From Oscillospiraceae bacterium (lineage in GTDB: Bacteria > Bacillota_A > Clostridia > Oscillospirales > Oscillospiraceae): a DNA stretch of 64,000 bases. Positions 1,254 to 64,000 of this stretch are shown in pieces (the first letter of the stretch is position 1; each line of letters opens with the position of its first letter). The notes below the pieces were generated by a model that had not been told where the DNA came from, ran no database searches, and saw nothing but the letters and a program-made list of their open reading frames with translations. Position numbers and translations under genes: made by a program. The stretch spans positions 58,253-122,252 of the forward strand of contig JAFYLN010000096.1 of NCBI GenBank assembly GCA_017537045.1, written 5' to 3'.

Positions 1254-3632
1254 ATGTCTGAACTATATGAAAAATCTCTGCTGAAGCTGGAACTGGATCA
1301 GGTTCTGGAAAAACTGGCAGAGTGCGCGGGCTCGCAGGAGGGCAAAGCTGCCTGCCGGGCGCTGCGTCCCAATTCTGATCTTGAAGATGTAAGGCTGATG
1401 TTGGAACAGACAACAGCAGCATCGGATCTTTGCACCAAAAAGGGAAATCCCGGCTTTTCCGAAGTCCGGGACGTTTCTGCGTCACTGGAACGGGCAGACC
1501 GTGGCGGCAGCCTGCAGCCAAAGGAATTGCTGCATATTGCATCTGTTTTGCGCTGCGCCCGTATCATCAAGGGCTATGTGTCTGAGGATGATCCTGCAAC
1601 TTGTCTGGATTCCTATTTCAAAGCCCTAACCCCTAATAAGTATCTGGAAGATAAGATTTTTGGCGCTATCCTTTCGGAAGAGGAGATTGCGGACAACGCA
1701 TCTCCCGCACTGTCTGACATCCGCCGCCATATGCGCATTCAAGCGGGAAAAATCCGCGACAGCCTGCAGAAGATCATTTCTTCTCCTGCCTATTCCAAAT
1801 ATCTGCGTGAACCTATCATTACCATTCGCCAGGGCCGCTATGTGGTGCCCGTGAAGAGTGAGTGCAAGAATGATGTACCGGGCTTGGTGCACGACGTTTC
1901 TGCCACCGGTTCCACTTATTTTGTGGAGCCAATGTCCGCTGTGAATGCCAACAATGCCCTGCGGGAACTGGAAATTAAGGAAAAGAAAGAAATTGAGCGT
2001 ATTCTGGCAGAATTGTCCAGTGAGGCTGCTGCCCACCGGGAGAACATTGACCTGAATTTCCGCATGCTGGTGGAGTTGGACGTGATCTTTGCCAAGGCAA
2101 AGCTTGCTTACCGGATGCGAGCATGGGCACCCATCATGAATGATCAGGGCAGGGTGGATCTGCGCAAAGCGCGTCATCCTTTGATTGATCCGAAAACCGT
2201 TGTACCAATTTCTGTGCGATTGGGTACGGATTTTGATTCCATGATCATTACCGGCCCCAATACCGGCGGTAAGACTGTTACGCTGAAAACCGTCGGTCTG
2301 CTGACTCTGATGGCAGAGTGCGGCCTGCATGTTCCGGCCGGCGACGGCAGTGAACTTTCCACCTTTGACGCGATTCTTGCCGATATTGGTGATGAGCAGT
2401 CTATTGCTCAGAGTTTGTCCACATTCTCCAGCCATATGCGCACCATCGTGGATGTTGTGGCAGAATGTGATGACCGGACCCTGGTTCTGTTTGACGAGCT
2501 TGGTGCCGGTACCGACCCAGCCGAGGGTGCGGCTCTGGCCACCGCCATTATCGAATTCTGCCGCAAAATGGGCAGCCATGTGGTGGCGACCACTCACTAT
2601 GCAGAATTGAAGCTCTACGCCATGCGGACACAGGGTGTCATCAATGCCTCCTGCGAATTTGATGTGGAAACCCTGCGTCCCACCTACAAGCTTCTGATTG
2701 GTATTCCCGGCAAGTCCAATGCCTTTGCAATTTCCCGCAAGCTGGGACTTTCGGAAGAGATTCTGAAGGAAGCCGATGATCTGGTGGACAAGTCTGATAA
2801 GGACTTTGAAGATGTTCTTTCCCAGCTGGAAGCACAGCGCCAGCAGATGGAAACTGCCCGCCGGGAGGCAGAACGTCTGAAAGTGGAAACCGCGAAGATC
2901 AAGCAGCAGAGCGAAGAATATTCCATCCAGCTTCAGAAAGAAAAAGACAAGGCTATGGAGTCTGCCCGCCGGGAAGCTCAGAAGATCATCGACGATGCCC
3001 GCTATACGGCTAATATTGCTGCCGAAGAGCTGAAAGCGCTGCGTAAACAGCTGCAGGACAGTGCTGATGCCTCTAATATCAACCAGCGTCAGGCGGAAGT
3101 GCGTCGCAGCCTGAATGAAATGGAAAGTAAAATCCGCTCCCAGCAGCCCAAACAGGAACGGCCTCAGCCCAAACGCGGTGTGATGGTGGGCGATACGGTT
3201 GAATTACTGAAGCTGGGTACAAAGGCATCCGTGATTGCGATCAACAAAGATGGTACTTATCAGCTGCAGGCAGGCATCTTGAAGATGACAGCGAAGTCAG
3301 ACGAGATATATTTGCTGGAAAATGACAATCCCTACAAGGAAAAAGCTGCCCGGCCCAAGCATTCAGGGCGTGAAATGAAGGTGGAAGCAATGCCCATGGA
3401 AGTGGATCTGCGGGGTATGGATTCTATCGAAGCGATTGCTGTTATGGAGCGCTATTTGGATGAGGCCATGCGTTCCGGATTGAAACAAGTGCGCATTGTC
3501 CACGGCAAGGGCACAGGTGTATTGCGCAGCGCAGTACAGCAGGCACTCCGTAAGAATAAGTTCGTTAAGAAGTTCCGGTTGGGCGTCTATGGCGAGGGGG
3601 AAGATGGCGTTACCATTGCGGAATTTGGTTAA
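1254..3632 (+). CDS. mutS2: Endonuclease MutS2
   Basis: A 792-residue MutS2 (usual size about 780-790). It lacks the mismatch-recognition domain of MutS. It has a core/clamp region to residue about 300, then the ABC-type ATPase with Walker A GPNTGGKT near 333, signature LSTFSSHM near 388, and Walker B LVLFDELGAGTDP near 413. A long coiled coil (about 515-640) leads to a C-terminal Smr nuclease domain with VDLRG near 716 and VHGKGTG near 748. The family is linked to suppression of homologous recombination and to ribosome-collision rescue. GGAGAT lies just upstream of the ATG. Confidence 0.97.
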   Translation: MSELYEKSLLKLELDQVLEKLAECAGSQEGKAACRALRPNSDLEDVRLMLEQTTAASDLCTKKGNPGFSEVRDVSASLERADRGGSLQPKELLHIASVLRCARIIKGYVSEDDPATCLDSYFKALTPNKYLEDKIFGAILSEEEIADNASPALSDIRRHMRIQAGKIRDSLQKIISSPAYSKYLREPIITIRQGRYVVPVKSECKNDVPGLVHDVSATGSTYFVEPMSAVNANNALRELEIKEKKEIERILAELSSEAAAHRENIDLNFRMLVELDVIFAKAKLAYRMRAWAPIMNDQGRVDLRKARHPLIDPKTVVPISVRLGTDFDSMIITGPNTGGKTVTLKTVGLLTLMAECGLHVPAGDGSELSTFDAILADIGDEQSIAQSLSTFSSHMRTIVDVVAECDDRTLVLFDELGAGTDPAEGAALATAIIEFCRKMGSHVVATTHYAELKLYAMRTQGVINASCEFDVETLRPTYKLLIGIPGKSNAFAISRKLGLSEEILKEADDLVDKSDKDFEDVLSQLEAQRQQMETARREAERLKVETAKIKQQSEEYSIQLQKEKDKAMESARREAQKIIDDARYTANIAAEELKALRKQLQDSADASNINQRQAEVRRSLNEMESKIRSQQPKQERPQPKRGVMVGDTVELLKLGTKASVIAINKDGTYQLQAGILKMTAKSDEIYLLENDNPYKEKAARPKHSGREMKVEAMPMEVDLRGMDSIEAIAVMERYLDEAMRSGLKQVRIVHGKGTGVLRSAVQQALRKNKFVKKFRLGVYGEGEDGVTIAEFG

Positions 3633-3652
3633 TTTAACAAACATTTAACACT

Positions 3653-3666
3653 TGTAAACGTTTCCA
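3653..3666 (+). promoter_or_regulatory. cre-like catabolite-response element
   Basis: TGTAAACGTTTCCA closely matches the Gram-positive cre consensus TGWAAACGNTNWCA. It lies about 55 bp upstream of the -35 box of the HPr-type gene, an upstream position typical of CcpA-activated rather than repressed promoters. Assignment is by consensus only. Confidence 0.5.
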
Positions 3667-3719
3667 CAATACAAAATACGTAAATGCGACGGTTCTTTGT
3701 GTAATAATGCTAAAATTGA

Positions 3720-3748
3720 TTGACTTTTTCGGTGAAATTGGCTATCAT
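3720..3748 (+). promoter_or_regulatory. Sigma-A promoter of the HPr-type gene
   Basis: TTGACT (3720-3725) and TATCAT (3743-3748) are separated by 17 bp, a close match to the housekeeping consensus, about 50 bp upstream of the start codon. Confidence 0.65.
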
Positions 3749-3799
3749 ATATGCAAACGCATGATTCCCGTGTAAATGCGTCGAGAAGGAGTGTTAATT

Positions 3800-4060
3800 A
3801 TGTTCAATAAGGAAGTCACCGTTCGCTGTGAGTCCGGCCTTCACAACCGGCAGGCTACATATTTTGTGCAAAAGGCGAATGAATTCGAAAGCAGTATCTG
3901 GCTGGAATCTTCCAACCGTAAAATGAACGCGAAAAGCCTTCTGGGCATCATGTCCCTCGGTATCATTACCGGTGCAACAGTAACATTGTCCGCTATGGGC
4001 TCTGATGCTGAGGAAGCAGTGAGCGCTCTGGAAGCCCTGCTCCAACGGGATGTTTATTGA
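3800..4060 (+). CDS. HPr family phosphocarrier protein
   Basis: An 86-residue HPr-fold protein. The phosphorylatable histidine is kept in SGLHNRQA (His14), although the usual Arg-Pro after it is Arg-Gln. The regulatory serine motif is kept in NAKSLLGIMSLG (Ser near 45). In the family His15 relays phosphate from Enzyme I to sugar-specific EIIA, and HPr kinase targets Ser46 to make the CcpA co-repressor. The start at 3800 is chosen because AGAAGGAG precedes it; an upstream in-frame codon at 3776 would add eight residues. A dedicated promoter and a cre-like site lie upstream. Whether it is the sole HPr or a Crh-like paralogue cannot be told here. Confidence 0.9.
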   Translation: MFNKEVTVRCESGLHNRQATYFVQKANEFESSIWLESSNRKMNAKSLLGIMSLGIITGATVTLSAMGSDAEEAVSALEALLQRDVY

Positions 4061-6504: not shown

Positions 6505-6990
6505 ATGAAAATTGCAATCTATCCGGGTAGCTTTGATCCTGTAACCAGTGGTCATCTGAATATCATACGGCGTGCCGCTAATATTTTTGATAAACTGATT
6601 GTCTGTGTCATGGTCAACGCAGGAAAAAAGCCGATGTTTACCCAGGAAGAGCGCGTCGCACTGATTCGCCGTGTAACTGAGGAGCTTCCAAATGTGGAGG
6701 TTGATTGTTCCGGTGAACTGCTGGCAGAGTATGCCAGACGCAAAGGAAGCTGTGTGATTGTTAAGGGATTGCGTGCAGGTTCTGATTTTGAAAACGAATT
6801 TCAGATGGCCTTGATCAATCATAAGATCAATCCTGAGCTTGATACGATGTTCTTAACCGCTGAAAGTCAGTATATGTATCTCAGTTCAAGCACGGTCAAA
6901 GAACTGGGCAGTTACGGAGTGGATCTGTCTGATTTTTTGCCGAAAGAAATCATTCCCGATTTTCAGGAAAGAATAAAGCTAAACCGTTAA
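6505..6990 (+). CDS. coaD: Pantetheine-phosphate adenylyltransferase
   Basis: A 161-residue CoaD, the fourth step of coenzyme A synthesis (4'-phosphopantetheine plus ATP to dephospho-CoA). The nucleotidyltransferase signature GSFDPVTSGHLNII lies at residues 8-21, and the family's C-terminal motif appears as YLSSSTVKELG near 127. The ATG at 6505 is chosen because it gives the usual MKIAIYPGSFDP start and follows GGGGAGAG; another ATG at 6502 and a TTG at 6487 are in frame. The gene begins 14 nt after the rsmD stop. Confidence 0.96.
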   Translation: MKIAIYPGSFDPVTSGHLNIIRRAANIFDKLIVCVMVNAGKKPMFTQEERVALIRRVTEELPNVEVDCSGELLAEYARRKGSCVIVKGLRAGSDFENEFQMALINHKINPELDTMFLTAESQYMYLSSSTVKELGSYGVDLSDFLPKEIIPDFQERIKLNR

Positions 6991-53803: not shown

Positions 53804-53832
53804 ATCCTAACAAATGCAGCGCAATTTGTCAA
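53804..53832 (-). promoter_or_regulatory. Sigma-A promoter of the T-box operon
   Basis: Reverse strand TTGACA (53827-53832), 17-bp spacer, TAGGAT (53804-53809), just upstream of the T-box and overlapping the end of the gene at 53829. Confidence 0.7.
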
Positions 53833-54689
53833 GTAATTTCTATAATTCCACAGGCCATGCCAAGTTTTGAAAAATTTCCTAAAACATTTCTCTGCAAGGT
53901 TGTGTATTGTGGATAATCGGCTTTTCTTGCATAGCGCTTTCCATAAATGTACTTGACAGCATCAGCGCCATAAGGATCAGATACTGCGCCAATGACTGTG
54001 AACCGTGACGCAAATGCCCGAATATGACTTTCAGCAGGCAGAAGCACATCCATGGGTGGATACAGAAGCCATGAATAGCAAAGGTATACCTTCGGCTGAA
54101 AAGAAGGAAATATTTTCTTGAAGAAAGAATCAGCCAAGGCAAATGCATCTGTAACGGCATCTTGCGTCAGATCTGCTTCGTCCGGGATATGCACATTGAT
54201 TACTGGTGTACCCTGCGGCAGCATCTGCTTTTGTGATTCTGAGAATCGAATATAGTCCTCACCGCAACCTTCTTTATCGAGATATACCATTTCGAACATC
54301 TGAAACTGGAGAGATCCCAGTTGAAAGAGTTTGGTGTTGTAAATATGCCGCAGCCAGATCGCTTGATCTTTTGATAGTCCAATGCGTCCAGTTTTCTTGT
54401 GATACTGATTTGCAAGACGCGCAACCTCCCAAACGGTACTGTAAGTAACATTTTCCGGAACACCAGCCTGCTCATATCGATACATTGCCTGATGCAAAAG
54501 ACAACACCAAATCACAATCCGATCCAAAGGGCGATACTTACAAATTGGATAATCAAAGCCATCAGACTGATAGGCAGTCTGTGCAGCGCTCTTGTACATT
54601 TCAGGATTACTCCGGTATCGGACAAGAATCACATCTCGAACTGGCTCGTCAAATTTCAACATAACCATGGCATCCAATATATACTTCAT
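53829..54689 (-). CDS. Acyltransferase, NAT_N/GNAT_C type
   Basis: A 286-residue protein resembling two-domain N-acyltransferases (NAT_N plus GNAT_C). Diagnostic C-terminal stretch: VYLCYSWLLYPPMDVLLPAESHIRAFASRF near 203-232, and an N-terminal domain with LDRIVIWCCLLHQAM near 54. Related clostridial proteins are annotated simply as acyltransferase domain proteins. It overlaps the GNAT gene before it by 4 nt and closes the acetyltransferase operon; no terminator is visible before the T-box. Confidence 0.78.
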   Translation of the reverse strand: MKYILDAMVMLKFDEPVRDVILVRYRSNPEMYKSAAQTAYQSDGFDYPICKYRPLDRIVIWCCLLHQAMYRYEQAGVPENVTYSTVWEVARLANQYHKKTGRIGLSKDQAIWLRHIYNTKLFQLGSLQFQMFEMVYLDKEGCGEDYIRFSESQKQMLPQGTPVINVHIPDEADLTQDAVTDAFALADSFFKKIFPSFQPKVYLCYSWLLYPPMDVLLPAESHIRAFASRFTVIGAVSDPYGADAVKYIYGKRYARKADYPQYTTLQRNVLGNFSKLGMACGIIEIT

Positions 54690-55291
54690 CGGCCAGCCTC
54701 CTGATATTCGCGGAATCTGGCCAAATCCAACTGGAATGTCAGACCATCGTAGACACCGCCGCGGATATGGCGGTTGCCAAGAAAACGGTTGATTTCACGG
54801 AAGCCGATCTTTTCTGCGCAGTGAACCATTCGGATATTACCTGACCAGGTTTGCAAGCGAAGATTGGTCTTTCCATGATCCAGAAAATGCTGGCAAAATG
54901 CTGTCAAGGCCTGTGCGCCAAGACCCCGACCCCAATTGCTGCTTTTACAGATTACAATGCCGAGCGTATACCAGAATTGACCGTGTTCCTTTGCATCTTT
55001 CCAGCTCAGATGCTGAAAATCTGCCCCGGTTGCGTATGACGATACCATGCCGATATGGCATCCGTCTGCAGTTGAAAGTTCAAAGAAATTATGGAAATCC
55101 CCTTCCCATTGATGGGTAAGCGTTTTCATGCCTTCCGCACGGTATGCGTTGGCATCAAAGGGTTCTCCGGAATCCAGATCGGAACCGTCCCAGTCCATCC
55201 ATTCAGTTTCTTCGGTGTTCCAGCGCACCCAGTCCTCAATGTCTGATTCGATCATATCCCGCAGGATGATGTCACGGTATCTTATCTCCAT
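54686..55291 (-). CDS. GNAT-family N-acetyltransferase (RimJ/RimL-like)
   Basis: A 201-residue GNAT domain: SNWGRGLGAQALTAFCQHFLD near 120-140 holds the CoA motif (GRGLG) and RLQTWSGNIRMVHCAEKIGFREINRF near 147-172 matches the RimJ/RimL region. Target unknown. It overlaps the pseudogene before it by 10 nt and the acyltransferase after it by 4 nt, so all three are one transcript behind the attenuator. Confidence 0.9.
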   Translation of the reverse strand: MEIRYRDIILRDMIESDIEDWVRWNTEETEWMDWDGSDLDSGEPFDANAYRAEGMKTLTHQWEGDFHNFFELSTADGCHIGMVSSYATGADFQHLSWKDAKEHGQFWYTLGIVICKSSNWGRGLGAQALTAFCQHFLDHGKTNLRLQTWSGNIRMVHCAEKIGFREINRFLGNRHIRGGVYDGLTFQLDLARFREYQEAGR

Positions 55292-56244
55292 GCTGCCACC
55301 TCCCAGTCAGAACGTGTCAGCTCCATGTAAACATAGGGACAGCCGGGATCTTCCAGATAAGCTGGACGCTCTGTTTCTTTGAAACCCAGCCGTTCATACA
55401 GGCGCAGTGCATTTCGGTTTTCTGGGGCGGGGTCAACATAGGCACACCTTGCATTACCTTCTGTAAACGTCCGATTCAGTGCGTAGGCAAGGCCTGCAAA
55501 GGCAATCCCCTTTCCTCTTGCTGCAGGCAGCAGCTTGATGTCCATACAGGCAAGTCCAGCATCATCCACATCGTAGAAGCTTTCTCCGCAGTATCCCATG
55601 TGGGATTCATAAATGCTGTAATGCTGCCGAATCGGGGGATTCTACACCCATGGGAGCCATTCTGTTTCAAGATGCTCCATGGATTCCTGTAATCCATCGG
55701 GAAATCCGACAAAACACATGACCTCCGGCGTTGCCCAAAGCTGCTGAACATTTGATAAATCACGGCATCCGGTGGTTCTGATCTGAATGTCCCATAAATT
55801 GCAGACCATGCAGATGCTGTTTGGTAAATCAGGATCTTGATAGCCGCAGCTTCGGAAGCCCGCCTTTTCATATACATGGATCGCAGCAGCGTTCTCTTTC
55901 CTGACACAGACTTCCACATGATTAAATCTGTGCTCGCAGCGGCAGTGATCAAGGATCAGTCTCAATGCCGCCTGACCGATGCCTTTGCTCTGCTGCTTCT
56001 GATCGATCAGAAATTCACACAGATGATAACAAGCCGGATCCTCATTCATGTCGTGAAGCATGGCAAGGCCAACGATCCGGTGATACTTATAGATGCCCCA
56101 GCAGATAGCATTCTGATCGCGGTATGCATAGCTTCTTGCAAGGATCATCGGTGCGGATGCTACAAATTCGCGCTGTTTCTCGGAAACCGTTAACAAAGCG
56201 GCTTCCATAAAATTTGTTTCGTTGATTGGTTGTAAGGTTATCAT
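55282..56244 (-). pseudogene. Tandem double GNAT acetyltransferase interrupted by an amber codon
   Basis: One reading frame of 320 codons codes for two GNAT domains. Domain one (1 to about 150) has QQSKGIGQAALRLIL near 85. Domain two (about 155-318) has PAARGKGIAFAGLAYAL near 241 and RNALRLYERLGF near 273. A single in-frame TAG at 55642-55644 (codon 201) cuts domain two: WLPWV-stop-NPPIRQHYSIYESHMGYCGE. The same frame continues without shift to the end, and a GAG-to-TAG change would explain it. A stalled re-start at the ATG after the stop, read-through or a sequencing error are alternatives. GGAGG precedes the start at 56244. Confidence 0.78.
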
Positions 56245-56254
56245 AGATTCCTCC

Positions 56255-56293
56255 AAAAAAACTATTGGAGGGTTTATTGGGCGTGAACCCTCC
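56255..56293 (-). promoter_or_regulatory. Attenuator and Shine-Dalgarno switch before the GNAT operon
   Basis: Three segments can pair in two exclusive ways on the transcript. A (56286-56293, GGAGGGTT, inside the leader ORF) pairs with B (56267-56274, AACCCTCC), followed by T7 as a terminator. B extended (CCTCCAA) can instead pair with C (TTGGAGG, about 56250-56256), which contains the GNAT ribosome site. Ribosome position on the leader would decide which forms. Confidence 0.7.
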
Positions 56294-56836: not shown

Positions 56837-57025
56837 TTAAGATTGAGATTCTTTCAATTTCATAAAGAGAGTGACAGACAGTGCCAGACAGACAACGGCA
56901 ATGGTCATGTAGAAAAACACCCGGCCGTATTCCATAAAGATAGCTGCCATGATGGTCATGACGATGCTGAATACGCCGCCAGCGATAAGAAGGATTCCGA
57001 ACAGTAACAACAAAGCCTTATTCAT
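56837..57025 (-). CDS. Small membrane protein at the end of the recN operon
   Basis: A 62-residue protein with two membrane segments (about 4-28 and 34-52). Its ATG overlaps the recN stop codon and follows GAGGAG inside recN, so it is translationally coupled. In Bacillus the gene after recN is spoIVB; this is not SpoIVB. Function unknown. Confidence 0.7.
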   Translation of the reverse strand: MNKALLLLFGILLIAGGVFSIVMTIMAAIFMEYGRVFFYMTIAVVCLALSVTLFMKLKESQS

Positions 57026-58670
57026 GACGCAGCATCTCCTCAGCACTCTTCAGTGTAATCTCAGTGATATTGGCACCACCGATGATACGGGCAAGTTCAC
57101 GCTTTCTGCCATCCAAATCCAGCGGTGTCACCGTGGTATATGTACGACCGTCCCTTTCTCCTTTGGCGATCAGCAGATGGGTATCACCCATGGCTGCCAG
57201 CTGCGGCAGATGGGTAACGCACAAAACCTGCTTGGTTCGTGCAACGCTTTTCAGCTTTTCTGCTACCTTCTGGGCTGCGCGGCCGGAGACACCGGTGTCG
57301 ACCTCGTCAAAAATCAGCGTGTTGACCTTGTCCTGCTCTGCAAGCACGTTCTTCATAGCAAGCATGATACGGGCAAGCTCACCACCGGAAGCGACCTTGC
57401 TCATAGGTTTCAGTGCTTCGCCCACATTGGAGGACATATAGAAAGCCACTGCATCAGCACCGTTGCCCGTCAGTTCCAGCTCAGTAAACTGGCAGGTAAA
57501 CTGTACTTTTGGCATATCCAGCTGGGCAAGCTCCGTCAGGATCCGCGCAGACAGCACTTCTGCAGTCTTTTTACGATTCTCACGAAGCGTAAAAGCTGCA
57601 TCCCACGCGGCCTTCTCAGCTTTGACAAGCTTTTTCTTCAGATGCTCAATGTGATCATCTGCAAATTCTATCTCATCCAACTCCTGCTTTGCTTTTTCCA
57701 AATACTCCAGAATCTCAGCGCAGGTGGTGCCGTATTTCCGGCGGAGCTTGTGAATGATGTCCAGACGGGATTCAATTGCATCCAGTTCATCCGCTGAATA
57801 AGACAGTTCATACTGCACCTCCCGGGCAAGTTCCGCCGCATCCTGAACCTGATACATCAGGTCTGCCACTTTCTCGTGGAGCTCGCTGATCTGGGTACTG
57901 AATTTTGCCACCCGCGCCAGGGCACGTTCCGCTGTTACCAGCATGGAGGCAGCACCATCTGTATCATCACCACCATAAAGATTTTCAACAGCATCGTTCA
58001 GACCGTTTGCAATCTTTTCTGAGTTCTGTAGCAGCTTACGGCGGGCTTCCAGTTCCTCGTCCTCCCCTGCCGTCAGGTTCGCTTTTTCAATTTCTTCGAT
58101 CTGATACTTCAGCGTTTCCATACGGCGAAGCTTTTCACCTTCGTCCATACTCATTCTGTCGATCTCACGGCGGAGTTTTGAAACAGCGCTGTAGCTTTCA
58201 ACATAAGCAATTCTCAGAGTCTCATTGCGTGCGAAATCATCCAGAAACTGCAGATGATTATCTTCGTCAAATAAAGATGCAGAATCGTGCTGTCCATGAA
58301 TGTTGATCAGCTGCATACCCAGCTTGTTCAGAATAGAGACTGTAACAAGGCTGCCATTAACGCGGCAAACGTTTTTACCGTCAAGATATATTTCACGCTG
58401 GATGATTGTTTCAGGATCATACTCCACACCGTTTTCATCGAACCAGTCCAACAGAGGGACATCGGTAAAAACAGCACGAACGGATGCTTTGTTTGTACCT
58501 GTTCGGATCATATCTCGATAGGCACGTTGACCAAGAATAGCTGAAATTGCATCGATAACGATGGATTTACCTGCACCGGTTTCACCGGTCAGGACGTTGA
58601 ATCCACGGTCAAAGGAAATGTCCGCGCATTCGATGACCGCGATATTCTCAATATGCAGAAGACTCAGCAC
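57018..58670 (-). CDS. recN: DNA repair protein RecN
   Basis: A 550-residue SMC-like ATPase: Walker A GETGAGKSIVIDAI near 29, long coiled coil (about 155-360), signature LASGGE-type in ASGGELARIMLAMK near 441, and Walker B TLIFDEVDTGVSG near 469. RecN acts early in double-strand break repair. The start is GTG at 58670 behind GGGAGGG. Standard argR-recN order. Confidence 0.96.
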   Translation of the reverse strand: MLSLLHIENIAVIECADISFDRGFNVLTGETGAGKSIVIDAISAILGQRAYRDMIRTGTNKASVRAVFTDVPLLDWFDENGVEYDPETIIQREIYLDGKNVCRVNGSLVTVSILNKLGMQLINIHGQHDSASLFDEDNHLQFLDDFARNETLRIAYVESYSAVSKLRREIDRMSMDEGEKLRRMETLKYQIEEIEKANLTAGEDEELEARRKLLQNSEKIANGLNDAVENLYGGDDTDGAASMLVTAERALARVAKFSTQISELHEKVADLMYQVQDAAELAREVQYELSYSADELDAIESRLDIIHKLRRKYGTTCAEILEYLEKAKQELDEIEFADDHIEHLKKKLVKAEKAAWDAAFTLRENRKKTAEVLSARILTELAQLDMPKVQFTCQFTELELTGNGADAVAFYMSSNVGEALKPMSKVASGGELARIMLAMKNVLAEQDKVNTLIFDEVDTGVSGRAAQKVAEKLKSVARTKQVLCVTHLPQLAAMGDTHLLIAKGERDGRTYTTVTPLDLDGRKRELARIIGGANITEITLKSAEEMLRHE

Positions 58671-58689: not shown

Positions 58690-59142
58690 TCAGGTTGTCA
58701 GACTTGCGATCTCGCCACAAAAAACAGCGGCAGCATTATTATCACGCATAACGACCATAACGGTATCGTCACCGGCCAATGTGCCAACGACCACACTTAG
58801 ATTCATGGCATCAATGGCAGAGGCTGCTGCTGCGGCAAGACCGGGTAATGTGTGGATCACAACGATATTCTGCGCATAGTCATAGCGGGTGACACACTCA
58901 CGGAAAATCGTATTCATACGTCCGGAAAATGTGGTAGGCATTTCTTTGGCGGCAACGGTATAACGGTAGGTTCCCAAGGCAGTTAATTCTTTGACGATGC
59001 GCAGCTCTTTAATATCGCGGGAAATGGTTGCCTGTGTGCTATGAAAACCGGCTTCCTGTAACTCCTGCAGGAGCTGCTCCTGCGTTTCAACATTGATATT
59101 GGAGATAATCTCCATAATTTTTGCCTGTCTTTGCGCTTTCAA
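58690..59142 (-). CDS. argR: Arginine repressor ArgR/AhrC
   Basis: A 150-residue ArgR: N-terminal winged helix (EEQLQELQEAGFHSTQATISRDIKELRIVK near 19-48) and C-terminal arginine-binding, hexamer-forming domain ending VVGTLAGDDTVMVVMRDNNAAAVFCGEIASL. The start is taken as TTG at 59142, 6 nt after GAGGTG; a GTG nine bases upstream is also possible. It lies between nadK and recN as in other Firmicutes. Confidence 0.93.
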   Translation of the reverse strand: MKAQRQAKIMEIISNINVETQEQLLQELQEAGFHSTQATISRDIKELRIVKELTALGTYRYTVAAKEMPTTFSGRMNTIFRECVTRYDYAQNIVVIHTLPGLAAAAASAIDAMNLSVVVGTLAGDDTVMVVMRDNNAAAVFCGEIASLTT

Positions 59143-59154
59143 ACCGTTCACCTC

Positions 59155-60018
59155 TCAGGAATTCTTAAATTTCATATTTACCACATCGTAAAAACTGCGG
59201 TCTTTCAGTCGAATCAGCTTTGTTTCGAGATTACTCTTACGCACTGTGACAACATCGCCCATATTCAGGCGCAGCGCCTTGCCGCCGTCAACAGACAGAT
59301 AGGCATTCCGGCGGGCATTCTGAACCAGTTCCACAGTGATAACACGCTTATCAGATGCAACGATACAGCGGCTCATCACATCATGGGCACAGATCGGTGT
59401 AATCAGAATATTGCTTGCTTCAGGTTCCACAATGGGGCCGCCGGCGGATAAGCTATAGGCTGTGGAGCCGGTTGGTGTTGCAACAATAATGCCATCGCCA
59501 CCGCACTGCATGGCTTCTACACCGTCACACTTAACAGCAAGATGTGCGATACGCGCAATGGCACCCTTGGTAATCACAACATCATTCAAACCGATATCAT
59601 GGAAAATAATATCGCGGTCACGCTGTACCACCACATCCAGCATCATACGCTTATCAAGGGTATAGTCACCATTCGCAAGGCGTGCAAGCTGATCCAGTTC
59701 TGTGCTTTCAAGTTCTGCCATAAAGCCCATGGTGCCGATATTGACACCGAGAATTGGCACATTTCTGCGGGTTGCGGATTTTGCCATGTGCAGAATCGTG
59801 CCGTCACCGCCAAAGCAGATCACCAGTTCGGCATTCTGAAGTTCCCTGTCCAGTTTATAAAACCGCAAATCCCTTGGCAGCTCATAGCTTCGGTCTACTT
59901 CAAAGGGCAGGCACAGCTTCGGCTCCATTCCGGCATCCTTTATGATTTTCATAGCCGCGCGAACCGTTTGGAAATTCTTATCCCGATAGGGATTTGGAGT
60001 TAAAATAATGTGTTTCAT
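59155..60018 (-). CDS. nadK: NAD kinase
   Basis: A 287-residue NAD kinase (PpnK), making NADP from NAD and ATP. It has CFGGDGTILHMAK near 68 (GGDG), GVNIGTMGFMAEL near 92 and MQCGGDGIIVATPTGSTAYSLSAGGP near 155-180. GAGGTAGGG precedes the ATG. It lies between tlyA and argR, a common clostridial operon order. Confidence 0.96.
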   Translation of the reverse strand: MKHIILTPNPYRDKNFQTVRAAMKIIKDAGMEPKLCLPFEVDRSYELPRDLRFYKLDRELQNAELVICFGGDGTILHMAKSATRRNVPILGVNIGTMGFMAELESTELDQLARLANGDYTLDKRMMLDVVVQRDRDIIFHDIGLNDVVITKGAIARIAHLAVKCDGVEAMQCGGDGIIVATPTGSTAYSLSAGGPIVEPEASNILITPICAHDVMSRCIVASDKRVITVELVQNARRNAYLSVDGGKALRLNMGDVVTVRKSNLETKLIRLKDRSFYDVVNMKFKNS

Positions 60019-60027
60019 ATCCCTACC

Positions 60028-60831
60028 TCAACTAAGTGTCTTATGCGCCTGCGAGACCACATCTGCGGTATCAGGCTCAATACCGGGCACATCTGCAAGT
60101 GTCAGATGCCCAAGAAATTCAATATTTCCTTCAGGACCCTTTACAGGAGAAAAGGTCAATCCAAGGATCGTAAACCCGAGATCCTTTACAAGTGCCACGA
60201 AGTTATCCAGTACCATCTGGTGGATTTTTGGGTCACGAACGACACCTTTCTTGCCAACATTTTCCTTACCTGCTTCAAATTGTGGCTTGATCAGGCAAAG
60301 AACCTGACCACTTTCCTGTTTTAAAAGTTTTTTGATGGTGGGAAGCACGATTTCCAGACCGATAAAACTAACATCGATCACAGATAAATCCAGAGGTTCT
60401 CCCAGATCCTCCGGGGTTACATAACGGATATTGGTACGTTCCATGACGACAACGCGCTCGTCAGAGCGGATCTTCCAGTCGAGCTGACCGTATCCAACAT
60501 CAATGGCAAACACTTTCTTTGCGCCCTGCTGCAAAAGACAATCTGTGAAACCACCGGTAGATGCACCGGAATCGCTGCAGACATAGCCATCCGGTTTTAC
60601 ACCGAAATCACGCAGCGCTTTTTCCAGCTTCAGACCACCACGGCTGACATAAGGACAGACAGCTCCGCGTACTTCAATTTCTACCGTTTCTTCGAAAGAA
60701 GTGCCGGGCTTATCCGCTTTTTGCCCATTGACATAGACGTTACCGCTCATGATGACTGCCTGCGCTTTGGAACGTGTTTCGGCATACAGACGCTCCACAA
60801 GAAGTACGTCAAGTCTTTTTTTAATCTTCAT
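60028..60831 (-). CDS. TlyA family rRNA 2'-O-methyltransferase
   Basis: A 267-residue protein: N-terminal S4 RNA-binding domain (KRLDVLLVERLYAETRSKAQAVIMSGNVYVNG near 5-36) and a FtsJ-like methyltransferase domain with DSGASTGGFTDCLLQQGAKKVFAIDVGYGQL near 86-116. TlyA in mycobacteria methylates 16S C1409 and 23S C1920; the Bacillus homologue is yqxC. The start at 60831 overlaps the dxs stop codon. Confidence 0.93.
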   Translation of the reverse strand: MKIKKRLDVLLVERLYAETRSKAQAVIMSGNVYVNGQKADKPGTSFEETVEIEVRGAVCPYVSRGGLKLEKALRDFGVKPDGYVCSDSGASTGGFTDCLLQQGAKKVFAIDVGYGQLDWKIRSDERVVVMERTNIRYVTPEDLGEPLDLSVIDVSFIGLEIVLPTIKKLLKQESGQVLCLIKPQFEAGKENVGKKGVVRDPKIHQMVLDNFVALVKDLGFTILGLTFSPVKGPEGNIEFLGHLTLADVPGIEPDTADVVSQAHKTLS

Positions 60832-62689
60832 GCCGCAGCACCTCACAAATGTAATCTGCCATTGCTTTACTGTCCAGACGAGTCTTCCGGTACAGACTCT
60901 TCATATCACCATGGGGAACAAAATCCTTGCCTAAATCAAACGCATGGACTTTACAATTAAGACCACCTTTTTGTAAGGACATGGCAATCGATTCACAGAT
61001 TCCGGAACCGGAGCATGTTTCTTCTGCAACAAAAACATGGCCACCGCATACGCTTTCAATCAGCTTGCCTTCATCATAATGGGTTACAGAATTCAAAATC
61101 AATTCACGGACATGGATATTTCTTTCTTCCAGCATTCTGACTGTTATCAAGGCTTCTTCAGCAAAAGGTCCATAAGTGACTAGGGTTACCCGGTCGTTTT
61201 CGGACTTCTGTAATGCATAGATTTCAGAAGGATCACCGAAGAAATGGCTTTGCGTACCGCAACAGGAAGATCCTCTTGGATAACGTACTGCTACAGGACC
61301 AGTACAATCATTGACTGCCCAGCGGAGCATCGCGCGCATTTCCTCAAAATTTGCAGGACACAGTACAGTCATGCCGGGAATCTGCCTCAGGAAACCCACA
61401 TCAAAAACGCCATGATGCGTCGGGCCGTCTTCACCTACAAGACCGGCACGGTCAATAGCAAAAACAACATGAAGCCCCAGAAGCGCAACATCCTGAATAA
61501 TCTGGTCATAGGCGCGCTGGAGGAATGTGGAATAGAGTGCGACAACAGGCACCATCCCCTGCTTTGCAAGACCGCCAGCCATAGAAACGGCATGTTCCTC
61601 TGCTATTCCCACATCAAACAAGCGCTTTGGAAATGCTTCACGGAATTTTAGAAGTCCCGTACCGCCGGGCATAGCGGCTGTGATGGCGCATACGCGGGAA
61701 TTTTCAGCTGCAAGTTCCACCATAGTTTCGCCGAATACATCAGAGTAGCTCTTATTACTGGTGGTAACAGAGTTACCGGTAACCGGATCAAATTTACCGA
61801 TGCCGTGGAATCTGGATGGATCCTCTTCAGCAGGCTGATAGCCATGCCCCTTCTTTGTCCGGACGTGGATCAGTACAGGAGAATTAAAATCACGTGCCAC
61901 ACGCAGAAGGTCGATCAATTCCGGCAAATCATGGCCATCCACCGGGCCAAGATAGGTCAGTCCCATATTTTCAAAAATAGTTGTTGGCAGAATAAAACGC
62001 TTGATACGGTTTTTGACCCGGCTGGTGAAATTGTAGAACGACTTACCGCCGGGAACATTTTTGAGAAGATTTCTGTAAATCAGCTTTAAACGCAGGTAGT
62101 CATCCGTACTGCGCAGGCGTGACAGGTGCTTTGCCATACCGCCCACATTCCGGTCGATAGACATTTCATTATCATTCAGAATGATAATCATAGGTTCCTT
62201 GCTGACAGCAGCATCATTTAAACCCTCATAGGCCATGCCTCCGGTAGCTGCACCGTCACCGATCAAAGCAATGACATGATAATTTTTATTCTGCAGGGTT
62301 CTTGCACGCGCCATACCCAACGCAATCGAAACAGAGCTGGAAGCGTGACCTGCAACAAAAGCGTCCGAATCACTTTCGTTCGGCTTGGGAAAGCCGGAAA
62401 TACCGCCAAACTGACGCAGATGCTCAAAATCCGTCTGGCGACCGGTCAGCAGCTTATGGACATAAGACTGATGGCCAACGTCAAATACCAGACGGTCTTC
62501 CATTGTATTAAAAACGGTCTCAATTGCAACGGTAAGCTCAACTGCACCCAGATTGGAGGCAAGGTGACCACCTGTTTGGGACACACTGGAAACCAGAAAG
62601 CTTCGAATCTCGTCGCACAAATCTGCGCGCTGCTGATCATTGAGGCGGGCAAGATCTTCATGACCGTTGATATTCGGTAAAATACGCAC
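60821..62689 (-). CDS. dxs: 1-deoxy-D-xylulose-5-phosphate synthase
   Basis: A 622-residue DXS, the first step of the MEP isoprenoid pathway (pyruvate plus glyceraldehyde 3-phosphate). ThDP site GDGAATGGMAYEGLNDA near 144, HVRTKKGHGYQPAE near 277, and the catalytic Glu in DVGIAEEHAVSMAGGLA near 357 are present. The start is GTG at 62689. ispA of the same pathway lies about 30 kb away in the nusB-xse cluster. dxs follows oapA. Confidence 0.97.
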   Translation of the reverse strand: MRILPNINGHEDLARLNDQQRADLCDEIRSFLVSSVSQTGGHLASNLGAVELTVAIETVFNTMEDRLVFDVGHQSYVHKLLTGRQTDFEHLRQFGGISGFPKPNESDSDAFVAGHASSSVSIALGMARARTLQNKNYHVIALIGDGAATGGMAYEGLNDAAVSKEPMIIILNDNEMSIDRNVGGMAKHLSRLRSTDDYLRLKLIYRNLLKNVPGGKSFYNFTSRVKNRIKRFILPTTIFENMGLTYLGPVDGHDLPELIDLLRVARDFNSPVLIHVRTKKGHGYQPAEEDPSRFHGIGKFDPVTGNSVTTSNKSYSDVFGETMVELAAENSRVCAITAAMPGGTGLLKFREAFPKRLFDVGIAEEHAVSMAGGLAKQGMVPVVALYSTFLQRAYDQIIQDVALLGLHVVFAIDRAGLVGEDGPTHHGVFDVGFLRQIPGMTVLCPANFEEMRAMLRWAVNDCTGPVAVRYPRGSSCCGTQSHFFGDPSEIYALQKSENDRVTLVTYGPFAEEALITVRMLEERNIHVRELILNSVTHYDEGKLIESVCGGHVFVAEETCSGSGICESIAMSLQKGGLNCKVHAFDLGKDFVPHGDMKSLYRKTRLDSKAMADYICEVLRHED

Positions 62690-62785: not shown

Positions 62786-63382
62786 TTATTGTTTGTTTTT
62801 CTTTTTGGAACGGAAAAGCCCCGGCACATGCTCCAGCCAGTAAATAAGCTTACCGACAGCATGCACGATTTCTGTCGCAGAATTAACCGCAAAGGTTTTG
62901 CCGATTGCCTTTCCGCCAACCGTAAGTCCGGCGCAGAATGCGGACATCAGCAGAGAAACCATCTGCGGCCAGCCAAACTCCATATTCTGCAAAATCTGAG
63001 CCGCAATGGTTGCAGATGCGCTGCCGGAAACAACACCGCAAATATCACCAACAACGTCGTTACAAATGGAACTGACACGCTCAGCATTGCGAAGCAGCCT
63101 GATTGCTGCCTGTGCGCCGGGAACTTTGCGGGCAGCCATGGAATGGAAGGGTTTTTCATCCGCTGTGGCAACCGCCATACCGATGATGTCAAAAATAATG
63201 CCGATCAGAATAATTGCCAGGAGAATCAAAAATGCGGTAACAATACAGCTTCTGCTCATAACTTCGTCAGAAATGAACGAAATGGTACCCGAAATGACAA
63301 TCGTGACTAAAAAAATGGTGACGACCCACCGGATCGTCTTATTCCGCGCTTTCTTTGAAGCTGCGGGATCAGTTTTTGACAC
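62786..63382 (-). CDS. oapA: OLE-associated membrane protein OapA
   Basis: A 198-residue protein with at least three membrane segments (about 18-36, 45-70, 138-158) and a conserved hydrophilic loop (ATADEKPFHSMAARKVPGAQAAIRLLRNAERVSSICNDVVGDICGVVSG). It ends in a basic tail (FRSKKKNKQ). In Bacillus halodurans OapA (about 21 kDa) sits directly after the OLE RNA gene and binds that RNA at the membrane; size, topology, and position between a structured RNA and dxs match. Pipelines often label such proteins CorB/DUF21-like Mg2+ transporters. Start is GTG at 63382 behind AAAGGGG. Confidence 0.8.
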   Translation of the reverse strand: MSKTDPAASKKARNKTIRWVVTIFLVTIVISGTISFISDEVMSRSCIVTAFLILLAIILIGIIFDIIGMAVATADEKPFHSMAARKVPGAQAAIRLLRNAERVSSICNDVVGDICGVVSGSASATIAAQILQNMEFGWPQMVSLLMSAFCAGLTVGGKAIGKTFAVNSATEIVHAVGKLIYWLEHVPGLFRSKKKNKQ

Positions 63383-63399
63383 TTGAATAAACCCCTTTG

Positions 63400-64000
63400 A
63401 GATTATTGATAGAAAGACGGCAGCAGACAGGATAAATCTTACGGCTTAGGTCGGGTTGTTTTTCACCGGAGAGAACCTGCCGTTGCCGAACAGGCCGTTT
63501 CCATTTGATCTCTCAGCCTGGGTGTTGCCAAATCCAAGTACCCGATTGCCACTTAGTCCGTACTGTAATCCCCTGTCTGCCCAGTTACGACAGCCTAGGT
63601 GTTTTCCACAACAAAGTGATCCATAGTCTTAGCCTCTTTTGCAAGGATGGTTTCCAGAGGCGATGACGACAGACGCTTGGCCGAGCGTACCATCGCCTGA
63701 TCCTCTTTCCCCTCATACTCACTCAAGGCAGGCTACACTGCACACAGCACACGATTCTGCGCACTGCCTTGCAGGTTCTTTTCCCGGCTCGTACGCGATG
63801 GGATCCCGCTAGGGACGTTCTACCTCGTCGCACAATACCAGGTCTCCACGGAAAACGGGTCGTATGCTCCATGCCATTGGGGCGCGCCCGTAATCCTTAA
63901 CCCCCAGCACCCACCCTAAACTGGGCGTAAAAAGCAGGCACCAGGGACTTCATCGATGTGCCCTTCATAGGATTTTTAGGCCCTACCTGGAAGATGGACA
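63400..64000 (-). ncRNA. ole: OLE RNA (ornate, large, extremophilic)
   Basis: About 600 nt without a gene, higher in GC than neighbouring spacers, and dense in perfect complementary pairs. Examples: GCAGACAGG (63423-63431) with CCTGTCTGC (63572-63580), a long-range closing helix; AGGCGATG (63658-63665) with CATCGCCT (63691-63698) enclosing ACGCT/AGCGT. It is immediately upstream of oapA, then dxs, tlyA, nadK, argR, recN, which is the known OLE operon. Size agrees with the usual about 610 nt; the 5' end may run past the window edge. Rfam comparison was not possible here. RNase P and tmRNA were considered and their signatures not seen. Confidence 0.8.

Follow-up and report, generated by a model that had tools for sequence, protein, structure and literature searches.

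Does the end of a 64,000-nt stretch of an Oscillospiraceae genome (contig JAFYLN010000096.1 of assembly GCA_017537045.1; hereafter the window) encode an OLE RNA next to the gene of its membrane partner OapA, as an initial annotation had proposed from some 600 gene-free, helix-rich nucleotides ahead of a membrane protein gene? OLE, a bacterial RNA of large size and elaborate fold, acts together with a membrane protein and ranks with the largest structured RNAs of bacteria that still lack a known biochemical role. We conclude that the locus almost certainly comprises an OLE RNA gene of the full-length type and the partner gene oapA, expected to work as the published OLE ribonucleoprotein does, and that it is a well-supported further example of the known OLE-oapA system.

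An OLE RNA at the window end

The proposed identity of the region was borne out by covariance search. Using cmscan, we found that the Rfam OLE model RF01071 (length 616, gathering score 50 bits) matches window positions 63401-63997 on the reverse strand with 409.6 bits (E 4.5e-118), a result repeated in a scan of the whole window. The match spans model positions 43-616 and stops 3 bases short of the window end; the annotation was thus right to place OLE at this end, and its extent needs amending, as the RNA runs on for 42 model positions (1-42) that fall outside the window. The closest relative (genome G001, from locus L001) has a complete match (model 1-616, 446.4 bits). Standard pairs form in 142 of the 155 model pairs that have letters on both sides in the window copy, and two hairpins carry additional stretches of 17 nt and 8 nt relative to RF01071. 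The minimum free energy of the window OLE is -214.2, where shuffles average -204.8 (s.d. 6.57); the difference (z -1.43) is not significant, with 12 of 100 shuffles folding equally well, and helices alone would therefore not have revealed OLE.

We then aligned 121 OLE sequences, the window copy included, and kept 92 with mutual identity below 90%. Across these, 88.8% of cells in the 155 pairs are standard pairs and 103 of the pairs show changes on both sides. The maximum over 100 column shuffles was 86 pairs with double changes and 78.3% standard-pair cells, and six versions of the structure slid by 1-3 positions gave 58-68 pairs and 40-46%, controls that ignore kinship and take the structure from the family model. 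On its covariance score as well as on covariation, the window OLE goes beyond chance. The distal helix of the P9 arm has double changes in all 20 of its pairs, yet just 68% of its cells are paired; a hairpin that by position is P13-like has them in 8 of 8 pairs, with 79% of cells paired and a GGYRAC loop in 91 of 92 sequences. Helix labels here and in Table 1 were assigned from descriptions in published papers.

Work by cryogenic electron microscopy describes OLE dimers joined through an A-rich L4 loop, pairing between L5 and L6, and an L9.3 kissing loop (PMC12286853; PMC12265935). The corresponding features are conserved across the alignment, and all three are present in the window copy: the L4 loop reads CUAAAAA in 92 of 92 sequences, the initial three nucleotides of the L5 loop are complementary to part of L6 in all 92, and L9.3 holds a four-base G/C palindrome in 90 of 92. 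Because the contact bases of L5 and L6 are nearly invariant, this is conservation and not intermolecular covariation. Judged by its sequence, the window OLE belongs to the full-length type, since it keeps helices that are shortened or missing in the gut OLE variants 1 and 2.

OapA and the distribution of OLE within the family

The membrane protein gene downstream, which begins 18 nt beyond the OLE match, was confirmed as oapA. Its product carries the DxxxD motif that is absent from CNNM domains (D109/D113), and the motif is kept in all 55 relatives with letters there, a further row being truncated to 2 residues. The predicted fold is CNNM-like, with long helices at residues 6-44, 47-73, 100-132, 138-167 and 169-190 and a best structural match to MtCorB (7m1t/7m1u); when the four transmembrane helices of an OapA were looked for, only segments within residues 20-64 reached the hydropathy threshold of 1.6. 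At the sequence level the CNNM match is weak (18.1 bits, E 0.0022, below the cut-off of 28.4), a domain scan found no CBS or CorC domain in the 198-aa protein, and a sequence search of the Protein Data Bank (PDB) returned a single weak row (E 0.15). Relatives of OapA were confirmed in contigs representing one genome per species (311, of which the best 80 were kept), and every one of the 80 has an OLE match upstream of oapA, 69 of them full length and the others mostly cut by a contig end. One assembly (JAFWAZ) contains, besides a locus with a strong OLE match (L075), a second oapA (L077) whose upstream OLE match reaches only 22 bits and is cut by the contig end, which may reflect a second copy, a decaying OLE or a mixed bin.

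To place the pair in its lineage, we sampled 200 genomes from the family to which G001 belongs. OLE is present in 56 and oapA in 57, namely the same 56 plus G186, in which the contig runs out after 71 nt of an OLE match that scores 32.4 bits, under the cut-off. In all 56 OLE-bearing genomes oapA lies downstream of OLE on the same strand, its match beginning within about 370 nt of the RNA in 55 of them; the distance is about 2.6 kb at locus L120 (the same place in genome G030 as L180), where a 786-aa lipoprotein-like gene (1594-3954) is inserted between the two. In genome G185 (L140), the OLE match falls into three pieces near a contig end (best piece model 278-595, 240.9 bits), and this OLE may be divergent or damaged.

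Published work reports an anticorrelation between OLE and the CNNM transporter MpfA for Bacillota at large (PMC11332333), and this exclusion is repeated within the one family sampled here: strong CNNM matches (E < 1e-20) occur in 11 of 56 genomes with OLE versus 133 of 144 without (Fisher p 7e-24, with kinship ignored and G186 counted as lacking OLE). Weak CNNM matches occur in 27 genomes, all with OLE, and are about as strong as OapA itself would be expected to score. Some calls of OLE absence may be due to incomplete drafts, such as G143, whose contig starts inside tlyA.

The other partner proteins show a less sharp distribution. An OapB-like protein is encoded in 43 of 56 genomes with OLE and 91 of 144 relatives without, and in G001 none was found; one such protein, compared with the PDB, matched 'OLE-associated protein B' best (7k9b, E 9.5e-7). 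Among the best 53 OapB matches (E <= 2.8e-30), 39 are in genomes with OLE, and genomes lacking OLE tend to lower scores; OapB could drift after OLE loss, and the OapB model was itself built from members with OLE. An L7Ae family match is found in 157 of 200 genomes, not including G001. We rejected it as a marker of OapC, as this Pfam family is not specific to OapC and fails to separate YbxF/OapC from paralogues.

Gene order around OLE

The downstream genes proposed in the initial annotation, dxs-tlyA-nadK-argR-recN on the reverse strand, each received a family-model match and follow oapA on its strand (Table 1). NCBIfam cut-offs are passed by dxs, tlyA, argR and recN each; the NAD-kinase matches of nadK lie under the NCBIfam cut-offs and above those of Pfam. 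Of these genes, dxs, argR and nadF (NAD kinase) have already been published as OLE neighbours (PMC10898510). The full order oapA-dxs-tlyA-nadK-argR-recN is found in 46 of the 56 OLE-bearing genomes; four of the remaining ten have no dxs there, and six are rearranged or truncated where the contig or fetched stretch stops.

Table 1. Features of the OLE-oapA locus, with positions in the window
Feature	Position	Strand	Evidence
OLE RNA gene (RF01071), 5'-most 42 model positions beyond the window	63401..64000	-	cmscan
Hairpin with A-rich loop (putative L4 dimer contact, label from PMC12286853)	63967..63986	-	helix 99% paired
Long hairpin, loop GCCCA (putative L5)	63901..63947	-	91% of cells paired; double changes in 9 pairs
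Helix, loop AUGGCA (putative P6/L6, where H. halodurans has its bS21 site)	63850..63896	-	
Long P9 arm, loop CGGCCA with GGCC palindrome (putative L9.3 kissing loop)	63632..63729	-	
3' domain, three long-range helices around further stems	63422..63581	-	99-100% paired, 92 sequences
Long-range helices of the 3' domain	63581-63571/63432-63422; 63562-63558/63444-63440; 63545-63540/63456-63451	-	
Hairpin, GGCAAC loop (by position, putative OapB-binding P13 region)	63517..63538	-	
oapA, OLE-associated membrane protein A, 198 aa, GTG start	62786..63382	-	
dxs	60821..62689	-	TIGR00204, 677.3 bits
tlyA-type rRNA methyltransferase	60028..60846	-	TIGR00478, 279.2 bits
nadK, NAD kinase	59155..60018	-	PF20143, 114.9 bits, and PF01513, 49.7 bits, both above cut-off
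argR, arginine repressor	58690..59151	-	TIGR01529, 133.9 bits (cut-off 130.45)
recN, DNA repair protein	57018..58670	-	TIGR00634, 553.6 bits

For the corresponding site in relatives without OLE, we fetched the tlyA region from 13 such genomes; that of G143 (L193) is cut at tlyA, leaving 12. In these 12 no oapA was found at the tlyA region, and the loci run dxs, tlyA, nadK, then argR and recN as far as the contigs extend (L184 and L189 are cut). An ispA-type gene lies upstream of dxs in seven of the 12, with one small gene intervening in two of these; the ispA and xseA of L181 are backed by family models, and the other ispA genes were named from likeness. In OLE-bearing family loci with enough upstream DNA, ispA ends less than 400 nt before OLE in 22 of 47. 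These arrangements together imply that OLE-oapA sits at, or was lost from, the junction between ispA and dxs. Among the loci closest to that of the window, 60 have upstream DNA exceeding 600 nt; searched over up to 6 kb, none of these has ispA ahead of OLE, and L001 has a Nudix-like gene there; in the nearest relatives of the window, then, the OLE block is separated from ispA.

Further downstream of recN, the window contains three GNAT-type acyltransferase genes close together (53829-56256, reverse strand) and, about 3 kb from recN, a T-box leader (RF00230, 53565-53797, reverse strand, 115.5 bits) directly following the GNAT-like gene at 53829-54689. Locus L002 also has a T-box, at 6616-6849.

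A conserved promoter and the ArgR question

Comparison of the 64 loci with enough upstream DNA revealed a conserved promoter before OLE, with a -35 element TTGTAT followed by ATTC, a 17-nt spacer and an extended -10 element TATGCTAnnAT; CTTG served as the anchor and is conserved by construction. The -35/-10 pair is found in 110 of 113 promoter stretches (12.8 expected) and the extended -10 in 100 of 113 (0.8 expected), with at least two genomes (L001/L141 and L013/L097) counted twice. Where ispA lies upstream, the pair occurs in 21 of 22 loci and the extended -10 form in 14 of 22. A matrix built from the promoter gave 93 sites scoring over 14 in 1.46 Mb, of which 86 were judged to lie at OLE starts by the letters that follow; the other seven (best 19.0) score below all training sites, which reach at least 21.5, and two of them are the ARG-box sites of L153 and L155 described below. 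A strict promoter pattern matched in four of 30 OLE-bearing genomes, twice at OLE, and is too strict to gauge specificity. In the accessible part of the open-licence literature on OLE RNA and dxs, we found no description of an ole promoter.

We examined a link to ArgR because argR belongs to the operon and because an OLE pull-down in Halalkalibacterium halodurans recovered ArgR (PMC10898510). The ATTCA after the -35 hexamer is more conserved than a promoter requires, and it forms a 10-bp palindrome, TGNATATNCA, over the -35 box in 58 of the 113 stretches (0.52 expected from single-base shuffles). The 14-bp ARG box TGNATN4ATNCA is found in seven of the 113 (0.48 expected from the same shuffles), L001 and L141 of one genome both being among the seven. 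We also fetched 30 loci with an argC model, one above its cut-off and 15 with E below 1e-30. The 14-bp box occurs in four of them, three among those 15 (L153, L155 and L156) and one GC-richer match (L165) that is probably due to chance; the 10-bp form TGNATATNCA occurs in none of the 30 (1.2 expected). The palindrome as the ARG box of these genomes is therefore unsupported. That the OLE operon of gut Oscillospiraceae controls itself, with the TGNATATNCA palindrome as an operator for ArgR or another repressor and with ArgR controlling the DNA while being titrated by the RNA, we consider unlikely.

Mechanism and alternatives

By analogy with work in H. halodurans and Clostridium, a promoter of its own, heading an oapA-dxs-tlyA-nadK-argR-recN operon, would drive transcription of OLE in this host, and the RNA would then be processed and released. 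Two OLE molecules would pair by way of their L4, L5-L6 and L9.3 loops, and OapA, expected to bind OLE RNA 2:1, would anchor the RNA in the membrane as a ribonucleoprotein. The resulting particle may aid survival of stress involving Mg2+, cold, alcohol and poor carbon sources, and may partly replace MpfA-type CNNM transporters.

Two rival accounts of the locus have to be weighed. The 600-nt element might act only in cis, as a structured 5' leader that regulates the oapA-dxs operon, and not exist as a free RNA here. This would suit its ending so close to oapA, its leading place in the operon among the loci closest to the window, and a terminator scan that found none in the gap between OLE and oapA, though the same scan placed two overlapping terminator-like sites inside the first oapA codons (63338-63317; three sites in the region, 2.1 expected). 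Against it, the size, dimer loops and structure of OLE are kept, and a simple leader would have no need of these. OLE in H. halodurans is a very abundant RNA of about 630 nt (PMC9723947), and we regard a mere leader as very improbable.

The protein, for its part, might be an ordinary small CNNM-type Mg2+ transporter whose RNA neighbour is incidental, a reading that draws on its faint CNNM match and CNNM-like fold. It is hard to reconcile with the joint occurrence of OLE and oapA in all 56 OLE-bearing genomes, with the OLE fragment at the contig end of G186, with the retained DxxxD motif, and with the tendency of CNNM transporters proper to be missing where OLE-oapA is present, and its probability is accordingly negligible. 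The OLE-OapA ribonucleoprotein thus remains our reading of the locus.

Host range and comparison with known OLE systems

The host had been taken for a gut-type Clostridium, and in this the initial annotation was mistaken: the nearest relatives are Oscillospiraceae and not Clostridium proper. The best 80 of the 311 OapA relatives are mostly metagenome-assembled genomes (MAGs) of Oscillospiraceae, Clostridia or Bacillota, a good number of them sampled from the guts of ruminants and other animals; identity reaches 91% in the closest. The annotation held OLE in a probable gut anaerobe to be of note, but a 2024 survey had already recorded OLE in 2,822 genomes of Bacillota, among them gut clades (PMC11332333), and the presence of OLE in this gut bacterium is consequently not new in kind. 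In the open-licence literature we found no paper naming both OLE RNA and Oscillospir-, and, among the matches listed, no title or abstract start on OLE in gut bacteria.

By itself, the locus changes nothing in existing knowledge of OLE. A family with OLE in 56 of 200 genomes, in which dxs-tlyA-nadK-argR-recN is kept with or without it, nevertheless provides a natural comparison set, and it points to possible hosts beyond H. halodurans; one of them is Pseudoflavonifractor sp. MSJ-30 (L070), a record that carries no MAG label.

Set beside known systems, the window locus most resembles the full-length OLE of H. halodurans and Clostridium acetobutylicum, with which it shares the covariance match, the dimer loops, the adjacent oapA and the dxs, argR and nadK neighbours. 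It differs from them in its extra stretches of 17 nt and 8 nt, in a P6 that on reading the sequence contains no CCUCCU anti-Shine-Dalgarno mimic, and, at the loci closest to the window, in having no ispA upstream. Gut Bacillota are likewise the hosts of the variant 1 (TANB77) and variant 2 (RF39) OLE RNAs (PMC11332333), but the window copy, unlike these, retains helices in the places of what appear to be P7, P8, P9 and P13. Its protein shares DxxxD with OapA of H. halodurans, and resembles the MpfA/CorB CNNM transporters in fold while differing from them in having neither CBS nor CorC domain and a CNNM match under the cut-off.
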